Shown here piece after piece: positions 7,244 to 30,656 of a DNA stretch of 64,000 nt (positions are counted from its first letter, which is position 1; every line of letters begins with the position of its first letter). The notes under the pieces were generated by a model. It was not told the origin of the DNA. It worked only from the letters and a program-made list of their open reading frames with translations, and made no database searches. A program made the translations under genes and the position numbers. The DNA is from Phycisphaerales bacterium (lineage in GTDB: Bacteria; Planctomycetota; Phycisphaerae; Phycisphaerales; UBA1924): contig JANQQZ010000133.1 in the NCBI GenBank assembly GCA_028284805.1, forward strand, positions 1-64,000, written 5' to 3'.

Positions 7244-9055
7244 TCATCCGCCGAGGGCCGCGAGCACACGCTCGCGGAGCTGGTCGAAGGCGACGAGCTC
7301 GCCCTTGCCCTCATCCGTCCTCCGCTTGAATTCCACGCCCCCCTGCTCGAGGGCCTTGTCGCCGATGGTCACGCGGACCGGGACGCCAATCAGATCGGCG
7401 TCCTTGAACTTCACACCGGGACGCTCCTTGCGGTCGTCGAGCAGAACATCCGCGCCGGCTTCGCTGAGATCACGGGCGACGCGGTCGCCAGCCTCGTCGT
7501 GCTCGGGCTTCTTGGGATCCATAACGGTCACGACGGCGTGGTACGGAGCGATGGGCGTGGGCCAGCGGACGCCGCCCTCGTCGTGCGACTGCTCGATCGC
7601 CGCCGCGATCACGCGGCTCACGCCGATGCCGTAGCAGCCCATGATCACGTCGGTCTTCTTCTGGTTCTCGTCGAGCACGACGAAGTCGAAGGCCTTCGAG
7701 TAGATCGTGCCGAGCTTGAAGATGTGCCCAACCTCGATGCCTCGCCGCGCCTCGAGAGCAGCCCCCGCCTGTCGGGGGGAGGGATCCCCCGCCTGCGCAT
7801 TCCGGATCTCGGCAACACGAACGGGGCCGTCGCCGCCGGGCGCATCCGGCAACGCCAGACCGAGGTCGCGGCTCCACACGAAGCCCGTGTCGTGATGGTC
7901 CTTCGTGTCCGATCCGGTTGCCCACACGCCCTGCTGGACGCCCCGGGTCGCATCGTGGTCGATCAGCAGCAGCGTGTTCGGAACCGTCGCGGCCGTGCGC
8001 GGGCTGACATAGCCGATGGCAAAGCCGGCCTCCTTGGCGAGCTTCTCGTCGGCGAGCGCGACAGAACGCCCGGCAGCGTCGCGCACCTTGCCCTCGTTGA
8101 CTTCGTGGTCACCCCGGACCACCGCGACGACCCAGCCGGGCTCGCCGTCGGTCGTCTGGAAGACCACCGACTTCAGCATCCCGCTTGGCTCGACGCCCAG
8201 GTGCCCGGCAACCGCATCGATGCCCGGCATGTTGGGCGTGTGATGCTTCGAGAGCGACGCGTCTGAGCTGGCTTCGAAGGACCACCCCCGCTCACCGATC
8301 TCACACTTCTCGACGTTCGCCGCATAGCTCGATGCCGGGCAGACCAGGATCGTGTCCTCGCCCGTCTCAGCATTGACCATGAACTCGTGCGAGGCCGAGC
8401 CGCCAATCGGCCCTGCCTCGGCCTCGACGACCGTGAAGTCGAGCCCGCAGCGCGTGAAGATGTTGACGTACGCCTGGTAGAGCCGGTCGTAGGTCTCGTT
8501 GAGGCCCCCGTCGCCCTCGATCCGCGTGTGGAACGAGTAGGCATCCTTCATCGTGAACTCACGCCCGCGGAGAAGACCGGCGCGGGGGCGGAACTCGTCG
8601 CGGAACTTCGTCTGGATCTGGTACACGGTCAGCGGCAGCTGCTTGTAGCTCGTGACCGAGCCCTTGACGAGTTCGGTCACCGTCTCCTCATGGGTCGGGC
8701 CCAGCGCGGTGAGGCGGCCGTGCCTGTCGGTGAGTCGGAAGAGCAGGTCGCCGTAGGCCTCGTCGCGTTTCGTCCCGCCGTAGAGCTCGATCGGCACGAG
8801 CGCGGGCAGCAAGAGCTCGCTGGCGCCCGCCGCGTCCATCTCCTCGCGGACGATCTGCGACACCTTCTGGAGCACGCGGAAGCCAAGGGGCAGGAAGTCG
8901 TAGACGCCCGCAGCAACCTGACGGATGCAGCCCGAGCGCAGCATGAGCCGGTGGCTGGGTGTGGTCGCCTCCGCCGGCGCCTCGCGGAGCGTTGGGATGA
9001 GCGTCTGTGTCCAGCGGTGCGTCACGCCCGTGCGGATCGTTGAAATCGGGTTCAT
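7244..9055 (-). CDS. proS: Prolyl-tRNA synthetase (bacterial type)
   Basis: Charges tRNA-Pro with proline in the cytoplasm. Class II motifs are visible: TLREAPAEATTPSHRLMLRSG and LPLGFRVLQKV (motif 1 region), YQIQTKFRDEFRPRAGLLRGREFTMKDAYSFH (motif 2) and GCYGIGVSRV near the C-terminal side (motif 3). The long insertion between motifs 2 and 3 is the editing (INS) domain of bacterial-type enzymes, and the anticodon-binding domain follows. Length 603 aa is close to the usual ~570. There is no Shine-Dalgarno; TAGACT sits 6 nt before the ATG, suggesting a leaderless mRNA. Confidence 0.97.
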   Translation of the reverse strand: MNPISTIRTGVTHRWTQTLIPTLREAPAEATTPSHRLMLRSGCIRQVAAGVYDFLPLGFRVLQKVSQIVREEMDAAGASELLLPALVPIELYGGTKRDEAYGDLLFRLTDRHGRLTALGPTHEETVTELVKGSVTSYKQLPLTVYQIQTKFRDEFRPRAGLLRGREFTMKDAYSFHTRIEGDGGLNETYDRLYQAYVNIFTRCGLDFTVVEAEAGPIGGSASHEFMVNAETGEDTILVCPASSYAANVEKCEIGERGWSFEASSDASLSKHHTPNMPGIDAVAGHLGVEPSGMLKSVVFQTTDGEPGWVVAVVRGDHEVNEGKVRDAAGRSVALADEKLAKEAGFAIGYVSPRTAATVPNTLLLIDHDATRGVQQGVWATGSDTKDHHDTGFVWSRDLGLALPDAPGGDGPVRVAEIRNAQAGDPSPRQAGAALEARRGIEVGHIFKLGTIYSKAFDFVVLDENQKKTDVIMGCYGIGVSRVIAAAIEQSHDEGGVRWPTPIAPYHAVVTVMDPKKPEHDEAGDRVARDLSEAGADVLLDDRKERPGVKFKDADLIGVPVRVTIGDKALEQGGVEFKRRTDEGKGELVAFDQLRERVLAALGG

Positions 9056-9064
9056 GGAGCGAGT

Positions 9065-9682
9065 CTAGCCGGAGCGCCGCGCAGTCTTCGACGCCGGTTC
9101 CCGCAGCGGCACGCCCGAGGCCTCGAACGCCGCCGACCAGCGCTCCGCGGCGCGGAGTTGGTCGTCACCCGCACGCCCCGCCCACCAAACCTCACCGGGC
9201 AGCAGGCCCAGGTCGATCGCGAGATCGGCCATCTGGCGATCGCTCAGGTCCGCGAAGGGTGCCTCGATCATCGCCGCGTCGCCGGACTCGACCTCGAGCA
9301 GACGCTCGACCAGAAGGGCGCTGTTCGCGATCGCCGCGGCGCGGTCGAGGTCGACCGACTCCGGATCGAGCGGGACGCCTGCGTGCGCCGCCCAGACCAC
9401 GCGAGACGCTCCCCTCTCCTCGGCGAGACGACCCGCCGCGAGCAGCCGGTCGGCGCTACGCATCGCATACGGCAATGGATCGAGAATGGAAGCACTGTTT
9501 GCCGCCGCTTGGCGCTGCAGGAGGGCGCCGGGCGGCGACGCACTCTCCACCGACGGAAGCAGAAAGAGATCGGACGGACCGGATGAATCAGACGCGAGGG
9601 ACGACTCGGCAGCATGCACCAGCGCGATCAACGCTCCGAGATCGCCATCGGACAGGATGACCGTGCCGCCGCGGTTGCTCAC
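9065..9682 (-). CDS. QueC-like PP-loop protein lacking catalytic motifs
   Basis: The ORF track starts at 9829, but that part overlaps the GH16 gene in another frame. I place the start at the GTG at 9682, after which the protein reads like a PP-loop ATPase (205 aa). TVILSDGDLGALIALVHA aligns with the QueC N-terminus, where SGGLDS would normally stand. The C-terminal APFADLSDRQMADLAIDLG aligns with the QueC region before its zinc site, but the four zinc cysteines are absent. The fold assignment is by eye and moderately sure; if right, it is a pseudoenzyme relative of 7-cyano-7-deazaguanine synthase. TAGGCT lies 5 nt before the GTG, with no ribosome-binding site, so it may be leaderless. It sits between GH16 and proS. 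Confidence 0.6.
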   Translation of the reverse strand: MSNRGGTVILSDGDLGALIALVHAAESSLASDSSGPSDLFLLPSVESASPPGALLQRQAAANSASILDPLPYAMRSADRLLAAGRLAEERGASRVVWAAHAGVPLDPESVDLDRAAAIANSALLVERLLEVESGDAAMIEAPFADLSDRQMADLAIDLGLLPGEVWWAGRAGDDQLRAAERWSAAFEASGVPLREPASKTARRSG

Positions 9683-9714: not shown

Positions 9715-11175
9715 TCACCCGCAGCCGGCGTTGTAGTTCAGGATCCAGGCGTTGAAATCGGCCGGGGTGATCGCGCCGTCCCCGTTCTGATCCGCGATGG
9801 GGTCGGCGTTGTTGAAGGCAAGGATCCACGCGTTGAAGTCGGCTGGTGTCAGCTGACCGTCGCCGTTGGTATCGGCGAGGCAGTCCGCAGTATCCAAGGC
9901 GAAGTCAAGCCAGTCGAGGTTGTACTCCTGACCAGGTGACGCGAAGTTGAAGAACCGCAGGGTCTGCTCGCCCGCCTGGAGCGTGACCGGGAACTGGATC
10001 TCCGTCCAGCTCTGGAAGCCACCCGTCGCGGGGACGAAGGCGATGGGGCCCACCGGGAGCTGATCCACCTGGAGCGAGAAAGCTCCACCGGTCGACTGCG
10101 ATGCGACGCGGGCGGTCACCGTGTACTCGCCGGCCTGCTGCACATCTACGCTGTACTGCATCCACTCGCCGAATTCGATCCACCCAACGTTGAAGCCACC
10201 ACCCGCGGTCGTCTCGATGTCGACATCGTCCCCCGGGCGGTAGGCGCCCCCATTGTTCGTGGCGTCGGTGTCGAAGTAGGTCTGCCCGGGGTAGCCCTCA
10301 TCGTAGTTCTCGGCCTCGATGCGCCCCGGGATCGCGATGGGCGAGCCGGTGAACGGCGCGGGGTCGAGCTGGTAGATCCGCACCCAGTCGACCTGCATCG
10401 ACTGCGGGAACTGCGAGGCGCCGTTTGGGTTTCCCGGGAAGTTGCCCCCCACGGCCACGTTCAGCAGCAGGTGGAACTCGCGATCGAAGGGCGCACGCGG
10501 ATCGCCAGAAGCCGCTGAGGAGAACCAGACGTCGCGGTCGATCACCCTGTAGAGCTGGCCGTCGACGTACCAGCGCATCTGGTTGGGGTCCCATTCGAGC
10601 GAGTAGGTGTGGAAGCCCTGCGAGAAATCGGTGCCCGGCGCGTACTGCCCACCGGCCTGAACGTTGCCCGGGAAGGGCGCACCGTAGTGGATCGTGCCGT
10701 AGATGCGGTCGGCGAAGTTCACCGACTCCATGATGTCGATCTCGCCGCTGGCTGCCCACGTGCCGTAGGGCGACGACGTGGGCAGCATCCAGAACGCGGG
10801 CCAGATGCCGGGTGTGCTGGGCAGCTTGATGCTGGCCTCGATCCGCCCGTACGCGACATCGACCCTGTTGATCGAGCGCAGACGCGTGGAGGTGTACCCG
10901 TACCCGCCGAAGCTCTCCTGACGAGCCGTGATGGTCAGCAAGCCGTCGGCGACCGAGGCGTTCTCCTCGCGGTAGTACTGGAGTTCGTTGTTGCCCCAGC
11001 CGGGCAGGCCGAAGAGCTGCCCGTTGCCGATCATGAATTCCCAGTTGTCGGGATTGACCGAGGTGCCGTCGAACTCGTCGCTCCAGACAAGCCGCTCGAC
11101 GCGTTGGCCTTCAGCGGATGAGACCAGAAGCCCAGCGATCAGGACCGATCCACAGAAGTTCCATTCTCGGCGCAT
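9715..11175 (-). CDS. Secreted GH16 endo-beta-1,3-glucanase with CBM6 and dockerin-like tail
   Basis: Likely a laminarinase that cuts beta-1,3-glucan outside the cell. The start chosen is the ATG at 11175, preceded by AGAGGAG at good spacing and followed by a signal peptide (residues 1-24); the track's longer start has neither. The GH16 domain covers about 25-272, with catalytic GEIDIME at 144-150 (Glu145 nucleophile, Glu150 acid/base). A CBM6 module (IPGRIEAENYDEG, ending DWLDF) spans about 281-425. The last 55 residues hold two Ca-loop repeats, DTNGDGQLTPADFNAWIL and DQNGDGAITPADFNAWIL, ending in NAGCG, as in the GC-type dockerin tails of Phycisphaerae. It is divergent from the pseudopilin/LacI genes. 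Confidence 0.92.
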   Translation of the reverse strand: MRREWNFCGSVLIAGLLVSSAEGQRVERLVWSDEFDGTSVNPDNWEFMIGNGQLFGLPGWGNNELQYYREENASVADGLLTITARQESFGGYGYTSTRLRSINRVDVAYGRIEASIKLPSTPGIWPAFWMLPTSSPYGTWAASGEIDIMESVNFADRIYGTIHYGAPFPGNVQAGGQYAPGTDFSQGFHTYSLEWDPNQMRWYVDGQLYRVIDRDVWFSSAASGDPRAPFDREFHLLLNVAVGGNFPGNPNGASQFPQSMQVDWVRIYQLDPAPFTGSPIAIPGRIEAENYDEGYPGQTYFDTDATNNGGAYRPGDDVDIETTAGGGFNVGWIEFGEWMQYSVDVQQAGEYTVTARVASQSTGGAFSLQVDQLPVGPIAFVPATGGFQSWTEIQFPVTLQAGEQTLRFFNFASPGQEYNLDWLDFALDTADCLADTNGDGQLTPADFNAWILAFNNADPIADQNGDGAITPADFNAWILNYNAGCG

Positions 11176-11679
11176 CGTGATCTCCTCTTTCTGTCGGCCT
11201 ATCGAGTGTAACAGTTTCGTCAGCAGGGTGATACGATTCCTGTGCTTTCGTCCAGAAGCCTTTGTCATGCCCTGTGATACGTCAGAAATGTCCTCCTGGT
11301 AAGCCCAGGAGGGTGTGACGACACCCGTAGCTTCGCAGGAACCCCCTCCTCCGGATCCACAACCGGCCCGAGTGATGGGACGTTCAGAGGCCACAAGCCT
11401 CCATTTGGAGGCCGCATCCCCCCACGGGACGCCTGGATCGCCCGCTTACGCATCGAGGGAGGACACAACTCGATCTCGAAGTCTCTTGAGGCCTGATTCT
11501 GTAGCGGTTTACACGATGATCGAAGCCCCGGGCGTCCGAGAGCCGAATCGTCAGATGTATGCAGTTGTATCACCAATCCCCGCCTTTGGGGGTTGACACG
11601 AGAGCGGCGTTCCATCATCATCACAACAGTTACACGGGGTTGTGAGTCGGCCGACCCACAGTTCAGAGAGGCAGCACCC
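11176..11679. promoter_or_regulatory. 504-bp divergent regulatory region
   Basis: No gene is visible here. The region separates GH16 (minus) from the pseudopilin-lacI pair (plus). It holds GTGATAC three times (plus at 11228-11234 and 11274-11280, minus at 11567-11573), an 8-bp-stem hairpin CCTCCTGG/CCAGGAGG at 11292-11312, and a near-palindrome GCCTCCA-TT-TGGAGGC at 11397-11412. Any could be a binding site for the LacI regulator encoded at 12666. Assignment to that regulator is a guess from position. Confidence 0.5.
11593..11621 (+). promoter_or_regulatory. Candidate sigma-70 promoter for pseudopilin-lacI
   Basis: A perfect TTGACA at 11593-11598 is followed, after 17 nt, by CATCAT (11616-11621; four of six matches to TATAAT). 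Transcription would begin near 11628, about 52 nt before the ATG at 11680. The ORF track read this TTG as a start codon, but the Shine-Dalgarno belongs to the later ATG. Confidence 0.45.
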
Positions 11680-13842: not shown

Positions 13843-14478
13843 ATGCAGAAGATCATGATCGCAGCAGTGATCGCAGCCGCCGGTGGCGTGCAGGGCCAGA
13901 ACCTGCTCGCCAACGCGGGCTTCGAGACACAGGTCAACTTCGACGGGAACGATTCCGGCAACTGGAACTCGTTCTTCGGCGGGGCCGACTTCCAGATGTC
14001 CGAGGCGATCGTTCCCGGCGCCACCGACGGCCCCCCCGCCGAGGGCGCCCAGGTGCTCCAGATCGGCACCTTCAACACGGCCAACACCTTCGTCGGCGTG
14101 ACGCAGACCGTCCCGGTCAGCGGCGGCGACGAGTACACCTTCGCCTTCCAGGCTCGCGAGATCATCCAGAACGGCATCTTCGCCGAGTACCGCATCGAGT
14201 GGAAGGACGCCGGCGGCTCCTTCATCGGCGGGCAGTTCGACCTGAACACCAACCTGGACTCGGGCCTGAGCTCGAGCTTCCAGCCCTTCTCGCTGACCGC
14301 GACCGCCCCGGCCAACGCCGTGACGGGCACGGTCGTGATCGCTGTCCAGACCTTCGGCAGCGCCGCTCCCTTCGAGGGCTTCATCCAGATCGATGACGCC
14401 TCGTTCGTTCCCGCGCCGGGCACGGCCGCGCTGCTCGGCCTGGGCGGCCTCGCCGCCGCGCGCCGCCGTCGCGCGTAA
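13843..14478 (+). CDS. Secreted protein with PEP-CTERM-like sorting signal
   Basis: The start at 13843 has AGGAG 7 nt upstream. A signal peptide (IMIAAVIAAAGGVQG) is followed by a beta-rich domain beginning NLLANAGFE, a phrase typical of galactose-binding-like (CBM4/9-type) beta-sandwiches. The C-terminus is VPAPG, then a hydrophobic stretch, then RRRR, which is the layout of PEP-CTERM signals recognised by exosortase. Length 211 aa. I cannot assign a ligand. The position between lacI and the ABC importer suggests a surface glycan-binding role, by inference. The track's start at 13780 overlaps lacI and has no ribosome-binding site. Confidence 0.75.
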   Translation: MQKIMIAAVIAAAGGVQGQNLLANAGFETQVNFDGNDSGNWNSFFGGADFQMSEAIVPGATDGPPAEGAQVLQIGTFNTANTFVGVTQTVPVSGGDEYTFAFQAREIIQNGIFAEYRIEWKDAGGSFIGGQFDLNTNLDSGLSSSFQPFSLTATAPANAVTGTVVIAVQTFGSAAPFEGFIQIDDASFVPAPGTAALLGLGGLAAARRRRA

Positions 14479-14491
14479 TCAGAGACTCCTG

Positions 14492-14566
14492 AATGGGTCC
14501 GGGTCCGCCACGACGCGGGCTCGGGCCATTGGTTCGAGAATCACTCACCCGCGGCAGGGATGCCGC
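14492..14566. repeat. Two intergenic stem-loops
   Basis: 14492-14530 folds into an imperfect stem of about 16 pairs (arms start AATGG and end CCATT; one bulge, some G-U pairs) around the loop CACGAC. 14551-14566 is a perfect 6-bp stem GCGGCA/TGCCGC with a GGGA tetraloop, ending 8 nt before the Shine-Dalgarno of the next gene. Neither has a clear T-run. They may trim or stabilise the mRNA between the two secreted-protein genes, or act as a partial terminator. Confidence 0.5.
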
Positions 14567-14587
14567 ACCTCATCTGGAGACGTAGAG

Positions 14588-15886
14588 ATGCTTACCCGCA
14601 CCGCCCTGTTCGCGATCGCCGCCGGCGCCGCCTGCGGCACCAACGCCCAGCTCCTGAACCCGGACTTCGAGACCCCTGGCGTCACGACCACGTTCGCCAA
14701 CTGGGATCAGTATGGTGACCCGGCCATCATCCAGCCCGGCTTCGAGCTGTTCAACGGCATCAACGGCCTGAAGATGTTCGGCAACTTCTTTGAGCCCTTC
14801 AACACCCAGGGTGTCTTCCAGACGCTCACCGGTGCCGTCACCCCGGGCGAGGAGTGGGAAGCCGCAGCACTCGTCGGCGATCTCACAGGCGACGAGATTG
14901 TCGGCAGCAACATCGGGTTCGTGGCGGTCGTCTTCCGCGATAGCTCGGGCACGAACCTCGTGGATCGCGCGGCCGAGATCAACGTCAGCAACGTCGTCAC
15001 CGACCAGCTGACCCGGTTCGCCGAGACGCTTGTCGCCCCGCTTGGCGCGGTCGATGTCCAGGTCAACATCGGTTTCCAGCAGCCCGTCATCACCGACGGC
15101 GGCGCGCTGCACTACGACGACGCCGAGCTGAACAACCTGAGCTCGGGCAACGACATCCCGTTCTACAACGGCAGCTTCGAGGAGATCATCTTCGGGCGCG
15201 CCGTCGAGGGCTGGTTCGACTTCGGCAACTCCATCCCCAACATCTTCACCGCCGAGGACTTCACCTCCCCGCCCGCGAGCGACGGTGATCAGTCCGTGCT
15301 GATGTTCGGGCAGTTCAACGGCGACCCCGCCGGCAATGACACCGGCATCTTCCAGGCTCTCCCGGCCGCGCCCGGCGAGTCGTGGACCGCGTCCGTCGAT
15401 GTCTACAACGACTCGACCGACCCGATCGGTGTCGGGAACGTCGCGACCCTGTCGCTCGTCTTCCGTGACGCGGGCGGGAACCTGCTGGGCGACAACCCGG
15501 TCCAGGCCGCCGACTCCAGCACAGGCTTCGATGCCTGGATGCCGGTCAGCACCTCGGGCACCGCGCCGGCTGGAACCGCGACCGCTGAGATCGTCCTGGT
15601 CTACTCGCAGGCCCCCGCTCCGGACGGGATCGCCGGCAACGAGCCCGCCGGTATCGTCCGGTGGGACAACGCCATGCTCATGCAGGGCTCGGCCGGACGC
15701 TTCTGCGCCGACCAGAACGGCGACGATCTGGTCACCCCGGCCGACTTCAACGCCTGGATCCTCAACTTCAACATGGGCGACCTCCGCGCCGACACCAACC
15801 AGAACGGTCTCGTCGAGCCGGGCGACTTCAACGCCTGGATCCTCGCGTTCAACCAGGGCACGAACGGCCCGACCTGCACCCCGTAA
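14588..15886 (+). CDS. Secreted two-domain protein with dockerin-like tail
   Basis: The start at 14588 has GGAG about 10 nt upstream; the signal peptide ends around AACGTNAQ. Two related beta-sandwich units follow, one opening QLLNPDFETPG and one NGSFEEIIFGRAVEGW, each with a matching VFRD(S/A)G strand, so the protein arose by internal duplication. The C-terminal ~65 residues contain two Ca-loop repeats, DQNGDDLVTPADFNAWIL and DTNQNGLVEPGDFNAWIL, as in the GH16 enzyme, ending NGPTCTP. Length 432 aa. It resembles the previous gene in its NxxFE opening, suggesting both are glycan-binding surface proteins held by different anchors. Ligand unknown. A strong terminator follows. Confidence 0.75.
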   Translation: MLTRTALFAIAAGAACGTNAQLLNPDFETPGVTTTFANWDQYGDPAIIQPGFELFNGINGLKMFGNFFEPFNTQGVFQTLTGAVTPGEEWEAAALVGDLTGDEIVGSNIGFVAVVFRDSSGTNLVDRAAEINVSNVVTDQLTRFAETLVAPLGAVDVQVNIGFQQPVITDGGALHYDDAELNNLSSGNDIPFYNGSFEEIIFGRAVEGWFDFGNSIPNIFTAEDFTSPPASDGDQSVLMFGQFNGDPAGNDTGIFQALPAAPGESWTASVDVYNDSTDPIGVGNVATLSLVFRDAGGNLLGDNPVQAADSSTGFDAWMPVSTSGTAPAGTATAEIVLVYSQAPAPDGIAGNEPAGIVRWDNAMLMQGSAGRFCADQNGDDLVTPADFNAWILNFNMGDLRADTNQNGLVEPGDFNAWILAFNQGTNGPTCTP

Positions 15887-29337: not shown

Positions 29338-30656
29338 GCGTCGGTCGTTTCCGTGTCGTCGGCGGGCTCGGGAGGAGCCTCGGACGCGAGTTCAGTGAGA
29401 CCAAGCCGGCCGAACAGGGCCGGATCGATGCCAGCGATCGCCACCGGCCACCGCCGGGCGAACGCGAGCCAATCATCTTCGCGGAGTGCCCGTCGGATGT
29501 CCAACATGAGCCGCTGAAAGTGACGCACATTGTGCAGGCTCACCAGGATGGGCCCGAGCATCTCCTCGGCTCGGAACAGGTGCCGAATCGTGCCCCTAGC
29601 GAAGCCGCGGCCGTCGGGCGTCGCGAGCCCATGACGCCCGGGATCACAGGCCGGGCAGTCGCAACCGGGTTCGATGACCTCTCGGTCACGCTCGTGGGCC
29701 TGGTTCTTGAGCCGCAGCGGGCCGGTCCGGGTGAAGGCGGTCGCCGATCGCCCGTTCCGGGTCGGCAGCACGCAGTCGAACATGTCCACCCCGGAGAGGA
29801 CCGCGGCGAGGATGTCCCGCTCGTAACCGACGCCCATCAGGTATCGGGGCTTGCTTGATGGCAGCATGGGGGCCGTGAACTCGACAACGCGGTGGATGTC
29901 CGCGGGCGATTCCCCCACAGCCACACCGCCGATTGCGTAACCAGGAAGATCGATCGCCCCGATCCGTTCGGCCGACCAGGCGCGTTCGCCCTCGTCCGTT
30001 CCTCCCTGCACGATGCCGAACAGCGCCTGCTCCTCGCTGCGCGCGTGAGCCTTCTTGCAACGCTCGAGCCAGCGGACGGTTCGCTCGTTCGAGGCGCGCA
30101 CACGAGCGGCATGGTCGTACTCCCCCCCGCGTGCGTCGCGAGCCGCGGCAAGCTTGAGACGCGTCTGGTTCACGGGGCCTGCGCTTGGATCGACCGAGGG
30201 TGGGCAGTCATCGAACGCCATGATGATGTCAGCCCCGAGCGCGTTCTGGATGCGCATCGATTCCTCGGGCGTCATCCGGATTGTCGAGCCGTCAACGATG
30301 GACTTGAACGAGACACCGTCCTCGTCGACCGCGTTCTTGTCCGCCATCGAGTAGGCCTGATACCCGCCCGAGTCGGTGAGGATCGGGCCCTGCCAGCCCA
30401 TCATCGCGTGCAGCCCGCCCAGTTCGGCGACCACGTCAGGGCCGGGGCGCAGCAGCAGGTGGTAGGTGTTGGCGAGCAGCACCTCACAGGCGCAGCCCCG
30501 GAGCAGCGATGGATAGAGCCCCTTGACGGTCGCCTTGGTGCCCACGGTCATGAACGCGGGCGTCTCGAAGGATCCGTTGGGTGTCTCGACCCGACCGATC
30601 CGTCCCCGGGTTCTGGCAGGGCTTTGCAGGATCTCGAAGCGGAGCGGGGCGTTCAC
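29334..30656 (-). CDS. tgt: tRNA-guanine transglycosylase (queuosine)
   Basis: Exchanges guanine-34 of Asp/Asn/His/Tyr tRNAs for preQ1 on the route to queuosine. LANTYHLLLRPG, ILTDSGGYQAYS (nucleophile Asp), GIVQGG, GYAIGGVAVGE and FDCVLPTRNGRSA are all conserved. The zinc site starts CDCPAC and ends at the His of IRHLF, but the segment between is about a dozen residues longer (DPGRHGLATPDGRGFARG) than in the Zymomonas/E. coli enzymes. Length 440 aa against ~375 is also explained by a C-terminal tail. It overlaps both rhomboid and yajC by 4 nt. Confidence 0.96.
   Translation of the reverse strand: MNAPLRFEILQSPARTRGRIGRVETPNGSFETPAFMTVGTKATVKGLYPSLLRGCACEVLLANTYHLLLRPGPDVVAELGGLHAMMGWQGPILTDSGGYQAYSMADKNAVDEDGVSFKSIVDGSTIRMTPEESMRIQNALGADIIMAFDDCPPSVDPSAGPVNQTRLKLAAARDARGGEYDHAARVRASNERTVRWLERCKKAHARSEEQALFGIVQGGTDEGERAWSAERIGAIDLPGYAIGGVAVGESPADIHRVVEFTAPMLPSSKPRYLMGVGYERDILAAVLSGVDMFDCVLPTRNGRSATAFTRTGPLRLKNQAHERDREVIEPGCDCPACDPGRHGLATPDGRGFARGTIRHLFRAEEMLGPILVSLHNVRHFQRLMLDIRRALREDDWLAFARRWPVAIAGIDPALFGRLGLTELASEAPPEPADDTETTDA

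Follow-up and report, generated by a model that had tools for sequence, protein, structure and literature searches.

QueC is an enzyme that makes a precursor of a tRNA modification. One small gene in the stretch of 64,000 nucleotides analyzed here (the window) encodes a protein with the outline of QueC in which residues diagnostic of that enzyme are replaced, raising the question of whether the protein descends from QueC at all and, if so, what it has been retained to do. The initial annotation described it as a degenerate QueC-like protein that had lost its PP-loop and zinc cysteines and was kept in a non-catalytic role. The gene is a real and intact reading frame, with the strand corrected to minus (Table 1). 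The best explanation is that it encodes a QueC-derived pseudoenzyme, which probably has a non-catalytic binding role outside preQ0 synthesis.

Table 1. Positions in the window of the degenerate gene, the remnants of its QueC motifs, and the adjoining synthetase gene
Feature	Positions	Strand	Remarks
Degenerate QueC-fold protein, 205 aa	9065..9682	-	GTG start; stop codon 9065-9067; basis: orthologues, AlphaFold2, Foldseek
Former PP-loop DGDLGA, residues 12-17	9632..9649	-	QueC: SGGLDS; family consensus DGGLAS; basis: alignments
Kept framework APFADLSDRQMADLAIDLG, residues 141-159	9206..9262	-	Pro142 as in QueC
Former zinc site VWWAGRAGDDQLRAAERW, residues 165-182	9137..9190	-	Four QueC Cys missing
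Prolyl-tRNA synthetase (proS)	7244..9055	-	Same strand; starts 9 nt past the degenerate-QueC stop codon

Ancestry of the protein and its missing motifs

Taken alone, the window protein has no QueC match in Pfam or NCBIfam and no sequence match in the PDB, so the resemblance first noticed could have been due to chance, and relatives were needed to judge it. A single-sequence search finds orthologues in 69 of 101 related genomes, nearly always in one copy and at 26-45% identity; the closest relative is about 44% identical, and identities within the window's own family range from 30 to 44%. PF06508 is matched by all 18 sampled members of families f2-f6, several of them above its cut-off, and relatives that keep the zinc site match TIGR00364, below its cut-off. 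Profile-profile comparison, which the initial annotation had proposed as a check, leads to QueC. By hhalign, the window's zinc-less family aligns with QueC at E 9e-8 and with the intermediate family at E 9e-33, and the intermediate family aligns with QueC at E 7e-22, all three being pairwise values against a single template, not values from a database search. Through these relatives, the window protein is well supported as a QueC homologue.

The AlphaFold2 model of the window protein (pLDDT 87.3, pTM 0.83), built from an alignment of the window's own degenerate family with no intact QueC in it, has a predicted QueC-like PP-loop (HUP/Rossmann) fold. Its best PDB matches by Foldseek are Bacillus subtilis QueC (3bl5; E 4e-6, TM 0.62-0.69), Erwinia QueC (2pg3), and Cap9, followed by other PP-loop enzymes. 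An intermediate member gives a stronger QueC match (pLDDT 90, E 6e-10). The PP-loop ATPase fold on which the QueC reading depended is therefore the one obtained by prediction.

Alignment also settles which QueC motifs are gone. SGGLDS is replaced, as had been claimed, but the replacement is DGDLGA and not SDGDLG, a register one residue off, because the family motif D-G-G-L-A-S aligns with S-G-G-L-D-S. No cysteine stands at any of the four QueC zinc positions. YxQxHxxE, VPxRN, YPDC, a conserved Lys, and the essential Tyr189 (PMC13329287) are missing as well. The framework APFADLSDRQMADLAIDLG reported as kept is real, with Asp148 in place of a QueC-invariant Lys and with Gln150 and Asp157 newly fixed in the family alignment. 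In the former zinc site VWWAGRAGDDQLRAAERW, a Trp pair and an Arg-Trp are conserved across the family.

Distribution, origin, and order of residue loss

A profile search of 298 Phycisphaerae genomes, checked on fetched loci, finds the degenerate protein in every genome of the window's family (28 of 28); the named records of that family are all metagenome-assembled Phycisphaerales or Planctomycetota. It is also present in f4, f6, f8, f11, f17, f19, f21, and f25 and in parts of f2, f5, and f9. The search shows it to be missing from most f2 genomes and apparently from f13, f18, and f20, where canonical QueC is the only form found. The degenerate protein is a single-copy family across many lineages of one planctomycete class, Phycisphaerae. 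Some additional QueC relatives occur in the sample: one f9 genome has, beside its canonical and degenerate copies, a third QueC-type protein (L189, G187:C15:15575-16189; SGGMDSTAAAAHAR...), and a second QueC-like match in G054 (C31:27555-28535) is split within one 365-aa frame, which suggests a QueC with a large internal insertion.

In a tree of 66 rows, 37 degenerate proteins lie on one side of a branch and 29 intact QueC on the other (bootstrap 97, SH-aLRT 95). The sole QueC of f7 and f16 is intact (SGGMDS, VPFRN, YPDC) and shares a murI-HEAT-adh-pgeF neighborhood with the degenerate copies of f8, f9, f11, and f25, not all four genes being present at every locus. Because intact and degenerate copies share this neighborhood, the most economical explanation is in-place degeneration of the QueC resident there, which appears to have occurred. 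The canonical QueC of f1-f6, f9, and f11 groups in the tree with QueC of other Planctomycetota and would have been acquired later.

The losses can be placed in order among 87 degenerate proteins and 65 intact QueC, with the motifs as defined in PMC13329287. The Asp of SGGxDS occurs in 0/87 and 65/65 respectively, the zero being in part a matter of definition, as any protein whose loop was intact counted as QueC. Arg99 and Asn100 are never found together in the degenerate set and always are in the intact one. The first Ser of the loop has become Asp in 36 of the 87. Tyr-Pro-Asp, which reads the 7-deazaguanine base in QueC and Cap9 (PMC13279940), persists in the majority of f8 copies and in every sampled copy from f17, f21, and f25; it has been lost elsewhere, wholly so in members from Phycisphaerales, the window's included. 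These four families are early-branching and keep S-G-G-x-N-S together with Tyr-Pro-Asp; to judge from these motifs, their members could still bind nucleotide or base. The set of four zinc cysteines is complete in every one of the 59 members that fall outside the zinc-less subclade of the window but in none of the 28 inside it, and the pattern C...CGxCxxCxRW is seen in six members of the window's family and in all 18 sampled members of neighboring families. The alignments thus place zinc loss late, in the window's subclade, and indicate that loss of the catalytic Asp is common to the class-wide clade. In E. coli QueC, R99A, Y131A, and Y189A each abolish activity (PMC13329287). Since a single mutation at any of these residues kills QueC function, preQ0 synthesis by the degenerate proteins is very unlikely.

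Put together, the ancestor would be a QueC that once sat at the murI-HEAT-adh-pgeF locus in Phycisphaerae. The PP-loop Asp and the ATP-site Arg-Asn were lost first, the 7-deazaguanine-binding Tyr-Pro-Asp next, and the zinc site last, in the window's subclade, with the fold kept according to sequence comparison and prediction. Each stage of loss, from the ATP site through the base site to zinc, is still represented among living lineages, and the ancestral locus is known with an intact QueC; together they offer an unusually complete enzyme-to-pseudoenzyme series for study.

Selection, gene content, and the retained role

The degenerate gene is present in 7/7 genomes of one genus in the window's family. 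Pairwise dN/dS within that genus is 0.09-0.30, rising to 0.40-0.54 against one divergent species, compared with 0.11-0.37 for the canonical QueC of the same genus and 0.10-0.46 for the degenerate gene in other clades; these ratios are approximate, as synonymous divergence is high, and are taken from related lineages, the window gene having no close relative. Such low values (mostly 0.09-0.30), like those of the genus's own QueC, indicate that the gene has been retained under purifying selection in related lineages. Moreover, Asp12, Trp97, Asp145, Asp148, Gln150, Asp157, Trp166, Trp167, Arg181, and Trp182 are newly fixed relative to QueC.

The source genome also holds a separate full QueC, the possibility of which the initial annotation had raised. 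It is the one QueC above the Pfam cut-off (C18:798-1442), has SGGLDS, VPARN, YPDC, and all the cysteines, and is adjoined by QueD (C18:1531-1809); QueA and Tgt are encoded as well. The degenerate gene lies apart from it, on C40, and shows no queD/queE linkage: its neighbors are proS, thpR, and others, and queD stands beside the other QueC. The tgt gene that had been pointed out elsewhere in the window does exist, 20 kb off (29448-30605, minus strand), but is uninformative on function because the degenerate protein is kept in genomes that have neither QueC nor a recognized QueD. The Tgt match itself is interrupted near profile position 140, where what looks like a short insertion divides it into two stretches within a single frame, and the same break is found in relatives G023 and G098.

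Gene content across the class bears more directly on the role. In 11 f8, 5 f19, and 2 f17 genomes, and in an incomplete one from f25, no other QueC accompanies the degenerate copy; most genomes are draft assemblies, and one of those from f8 has a further partial match of 37 bits. QueD above its curated cut-off is found in 1 of these 19 genomes and in 12 of 17 with intact QueC (Fisher p 6e-5), absence being defined by that cut-off, which leaves five genomes with intact QueC also lacking it. QueA is encoded in all 19 except the f25 genome, and Tgt in all 18 tested. The presence of tgt and queA without recognized QueD or intact QueC suggests salvage, and f8, f19, and f17 (e.g., G102, G231, and G319) are probable queuosine-precursor salvage lineages in Phycisphaerae. 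By gene content there is INDEPENDENCE FROM preQ0: because the degenerate copy persists without QueC or recognized QueD, its retained role is neither preQ0 synthesis nor that of an obligate QueC subunit.

Gene neighborhoods are specific to each family. In the window's family the gene recurrently lies near proS and thpR; f6 genomes have a class I glutamine amidotransferase nearby, f4 and f5 genomes a CysQ-like phosphatase, and further families murI, HEAT, adh, and pgeF. None of these neighbors is common to all families, and no partner or ligand emerged from the comparison of recurrent neighbors; a shared neighbor as a clue to function was accordingly rejected. The proS gene recurs as a neighbor of the degenerate gene at 10 loci of the window's family and not in other families. 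The arrangement in the window suggests co-transcription there only, and proS is context for the degenerate gene, not a proven partner.

Other features of these loci may be recorded. In most f6 genomes, a stand-alone class I glutamine amidotransferase gene adjoins the degenerate QueC in divergent orientation (L082, L085, L088, L090, L091, L094); GMP synthase is one of the other PP-loop enzymes that receive ammonia from amidotransferases. In the window, 9715-11394 (minus strand) and 14393-15886 (plus strand) encode two predicted secreted proteins that finish with a repeated motif of the DTNGDGQLTPADFNAWILAFN type, and the first of them resembles a glycoside hydrolase family 16 enzyme.

The retained non-catalytic role proposed in the initial annotation is supported: profile-profile comparison, structure prediction, the presence of a separate full QueC, and dN/dS in relatives, the checks it had put forward, all speak for it. 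The closed-off cleft, with its newly fixed residues (WP following the fourth strand, DxxDxQ, WW, and RW), may now serve to bind a partner protein or a small ligand; the protein would then be a scaffold or a regulator that performs no ATP chemistry. The preQ0 work, judging from gene content, usually falls to a separate intact QueC elsewhere in the genome.

A non-catalytic role in sensing or carrying a 7-deazaguanine such as preQ0 or preQ1, for salvage or the regulation of salvage, is a somewhat unlikely alternative. It would suit the f8, f17, f21, and f25 copies, which keep Tyr/Phe-Pro-Asp, the base-reading motif of QueC and Cap9 (PMC13279940), and the f8 and f19 genomes, where tgt and queA without recognized QueD and QueC are what salvage would predict. 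However, the members from Phycisphaerales, including the window's, have their own preQ0 synthesis and no Tyr-Pro-Asp, and Trp-Pro sits at the strand end beside the former base site. It is unlikely, too, that the protein is still an enzyme whose remodeled cleft catalyzes some new reaction, either independent of ATP or with a different coordination. The strict conservation of the newly fixed residues would fit such an activity, but the phosphate loop is broken, the frequent Asp at its first Ser (36/87) disfavors phosphate binding, and the 87 members show no evident conserved set of metal ligands or nucleophiles.

Heterodimerization as a non-catalytic subunit with the working QueC has a precedent among PP-loop enzymes in Ctu2, which pairs with Ctu1 in tRNA thiolation (PMC10067955), and both genes occur in 28/28 class-sample genomes of the window's family. 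Yet the degenerate copy stands alone in 18 genomes (11 f8, 5 f19, and 2 f17, one with the 37-bit partial match), most f2 genomes have QueC without it, and the two genes are not adjacent in the source genome, making an arrangement of this kind quite improbable.

A decaying relic heading for loss could account for the fast divergence (30-44% identity within the family) and the progressive loss of motifs along the tree, but reading frames are intact almost without exception, retention extends across the class, dN/dS values are low, the fold is predicted with high confidence, and decay would not fix new residues as has happened here; this outcome is very doubtful. An anti-phage function in the manner of QatC or Cap9 was set aside as scarcely credible: the PADLOC QueC model (Cap9 type) matches 18/18 intermediate members and Cap9 ranks with the top structural hits, but the PADLOC match falls in the shared C-terminal region, the SGGxDS that QatC and Cap9 require is missing, no CD-NTase, QatA, QatB, or QatD is among the recurrent neighbors, and vertical inheritance in single copy sets the gene apart from defense islands.

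Relation to known QueC-fold systems

The degenerate proteins form a QueC-derived pseudoenzyme clade and are not functional QueC. The 2026 survey of PF06508 reports SGGxDS, or a variant close to it, throughout clusters 1-6 and 9, does not analyze the archaeal clusters 7, 8, and 10, and mentions no Planctomycetes in its main text (PMC13329287); nor is the clade described in the open-licence literature searched. Because the clade lacks SGGxDS, unlike every branch analyzed in that survey, PF06508 includes non-catalytic members. Annotation as 'QueC' from a PF06508 match alone can therefore mislead, and preQ0 synthesis would wrongly be credited to genomes whose sole copy is the dead one. We lean towards the view that this clade of catalytically dead proteins, derived in place from the resident QueC, took on a new role in the cell, unconnected with 7-deazaguanine synthesis, after its enzymatic role was lost or handed over. 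If so, it would be the first QueC-family branch to be described that functions without the ATP loop and, within the subclade of the window, without zinc as well.

Canonical QueC (7-cyano-7-deazaguanine synthase; PF06508 cluster 1, PMC13329287; 3bl5, 2pg3), which makes preQ0 from CDG using ATP, shares with the window protein its fold, order of secondary structure, ancestry, approximate length (205 aa in the window, about 220 in QueC), and the framework of I-E-(T/A)-P and D-L-x-x-x-Q/E. In contrast to QueC, the window protein has no SGGxDS, YxQxHxxE, VPxRN, YPDC, Lys165, or Tyr189. The C(x)8CxxCxxC zinc site, missing in the window's subclade, is kept in 59 of 87 relatives, and the degenerate protein is not required alongside QueD.

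Other systems have also turned the QueC scaffold to new ends. Cap9 of type IV CBASS (9nto) is likewise a small QueC-fold protein repurposed away from preQ0, but it has an active site (SGGxDS) and an adjacent CD-NTase, whereas the window gene has neither. QatC of the Qat anti-phage system combines the QueC scaffold with a remodeled substrate site. Unlike the 205-aa window protein, it retains SGGxDS and zinc, carries N- and C-terminal extensions (about 400 aa in all), and is encoded in an operon with QatA, QatB, and QatD, none of which neighbors the window gene; the NCBIfam QatC model matches only 2 of 18 members, at best with E 0.002. Ctu2 (Ncs2) of eukaryotic U34 thiolation is similar in being a PP-loop paralogue that has lost its cofactor Cys and is retained without a catalytic function. 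It belongs to another PP-loop subfamily, however, and its active partner is always present, whereas the dead QueC persists in genomes without QueC.
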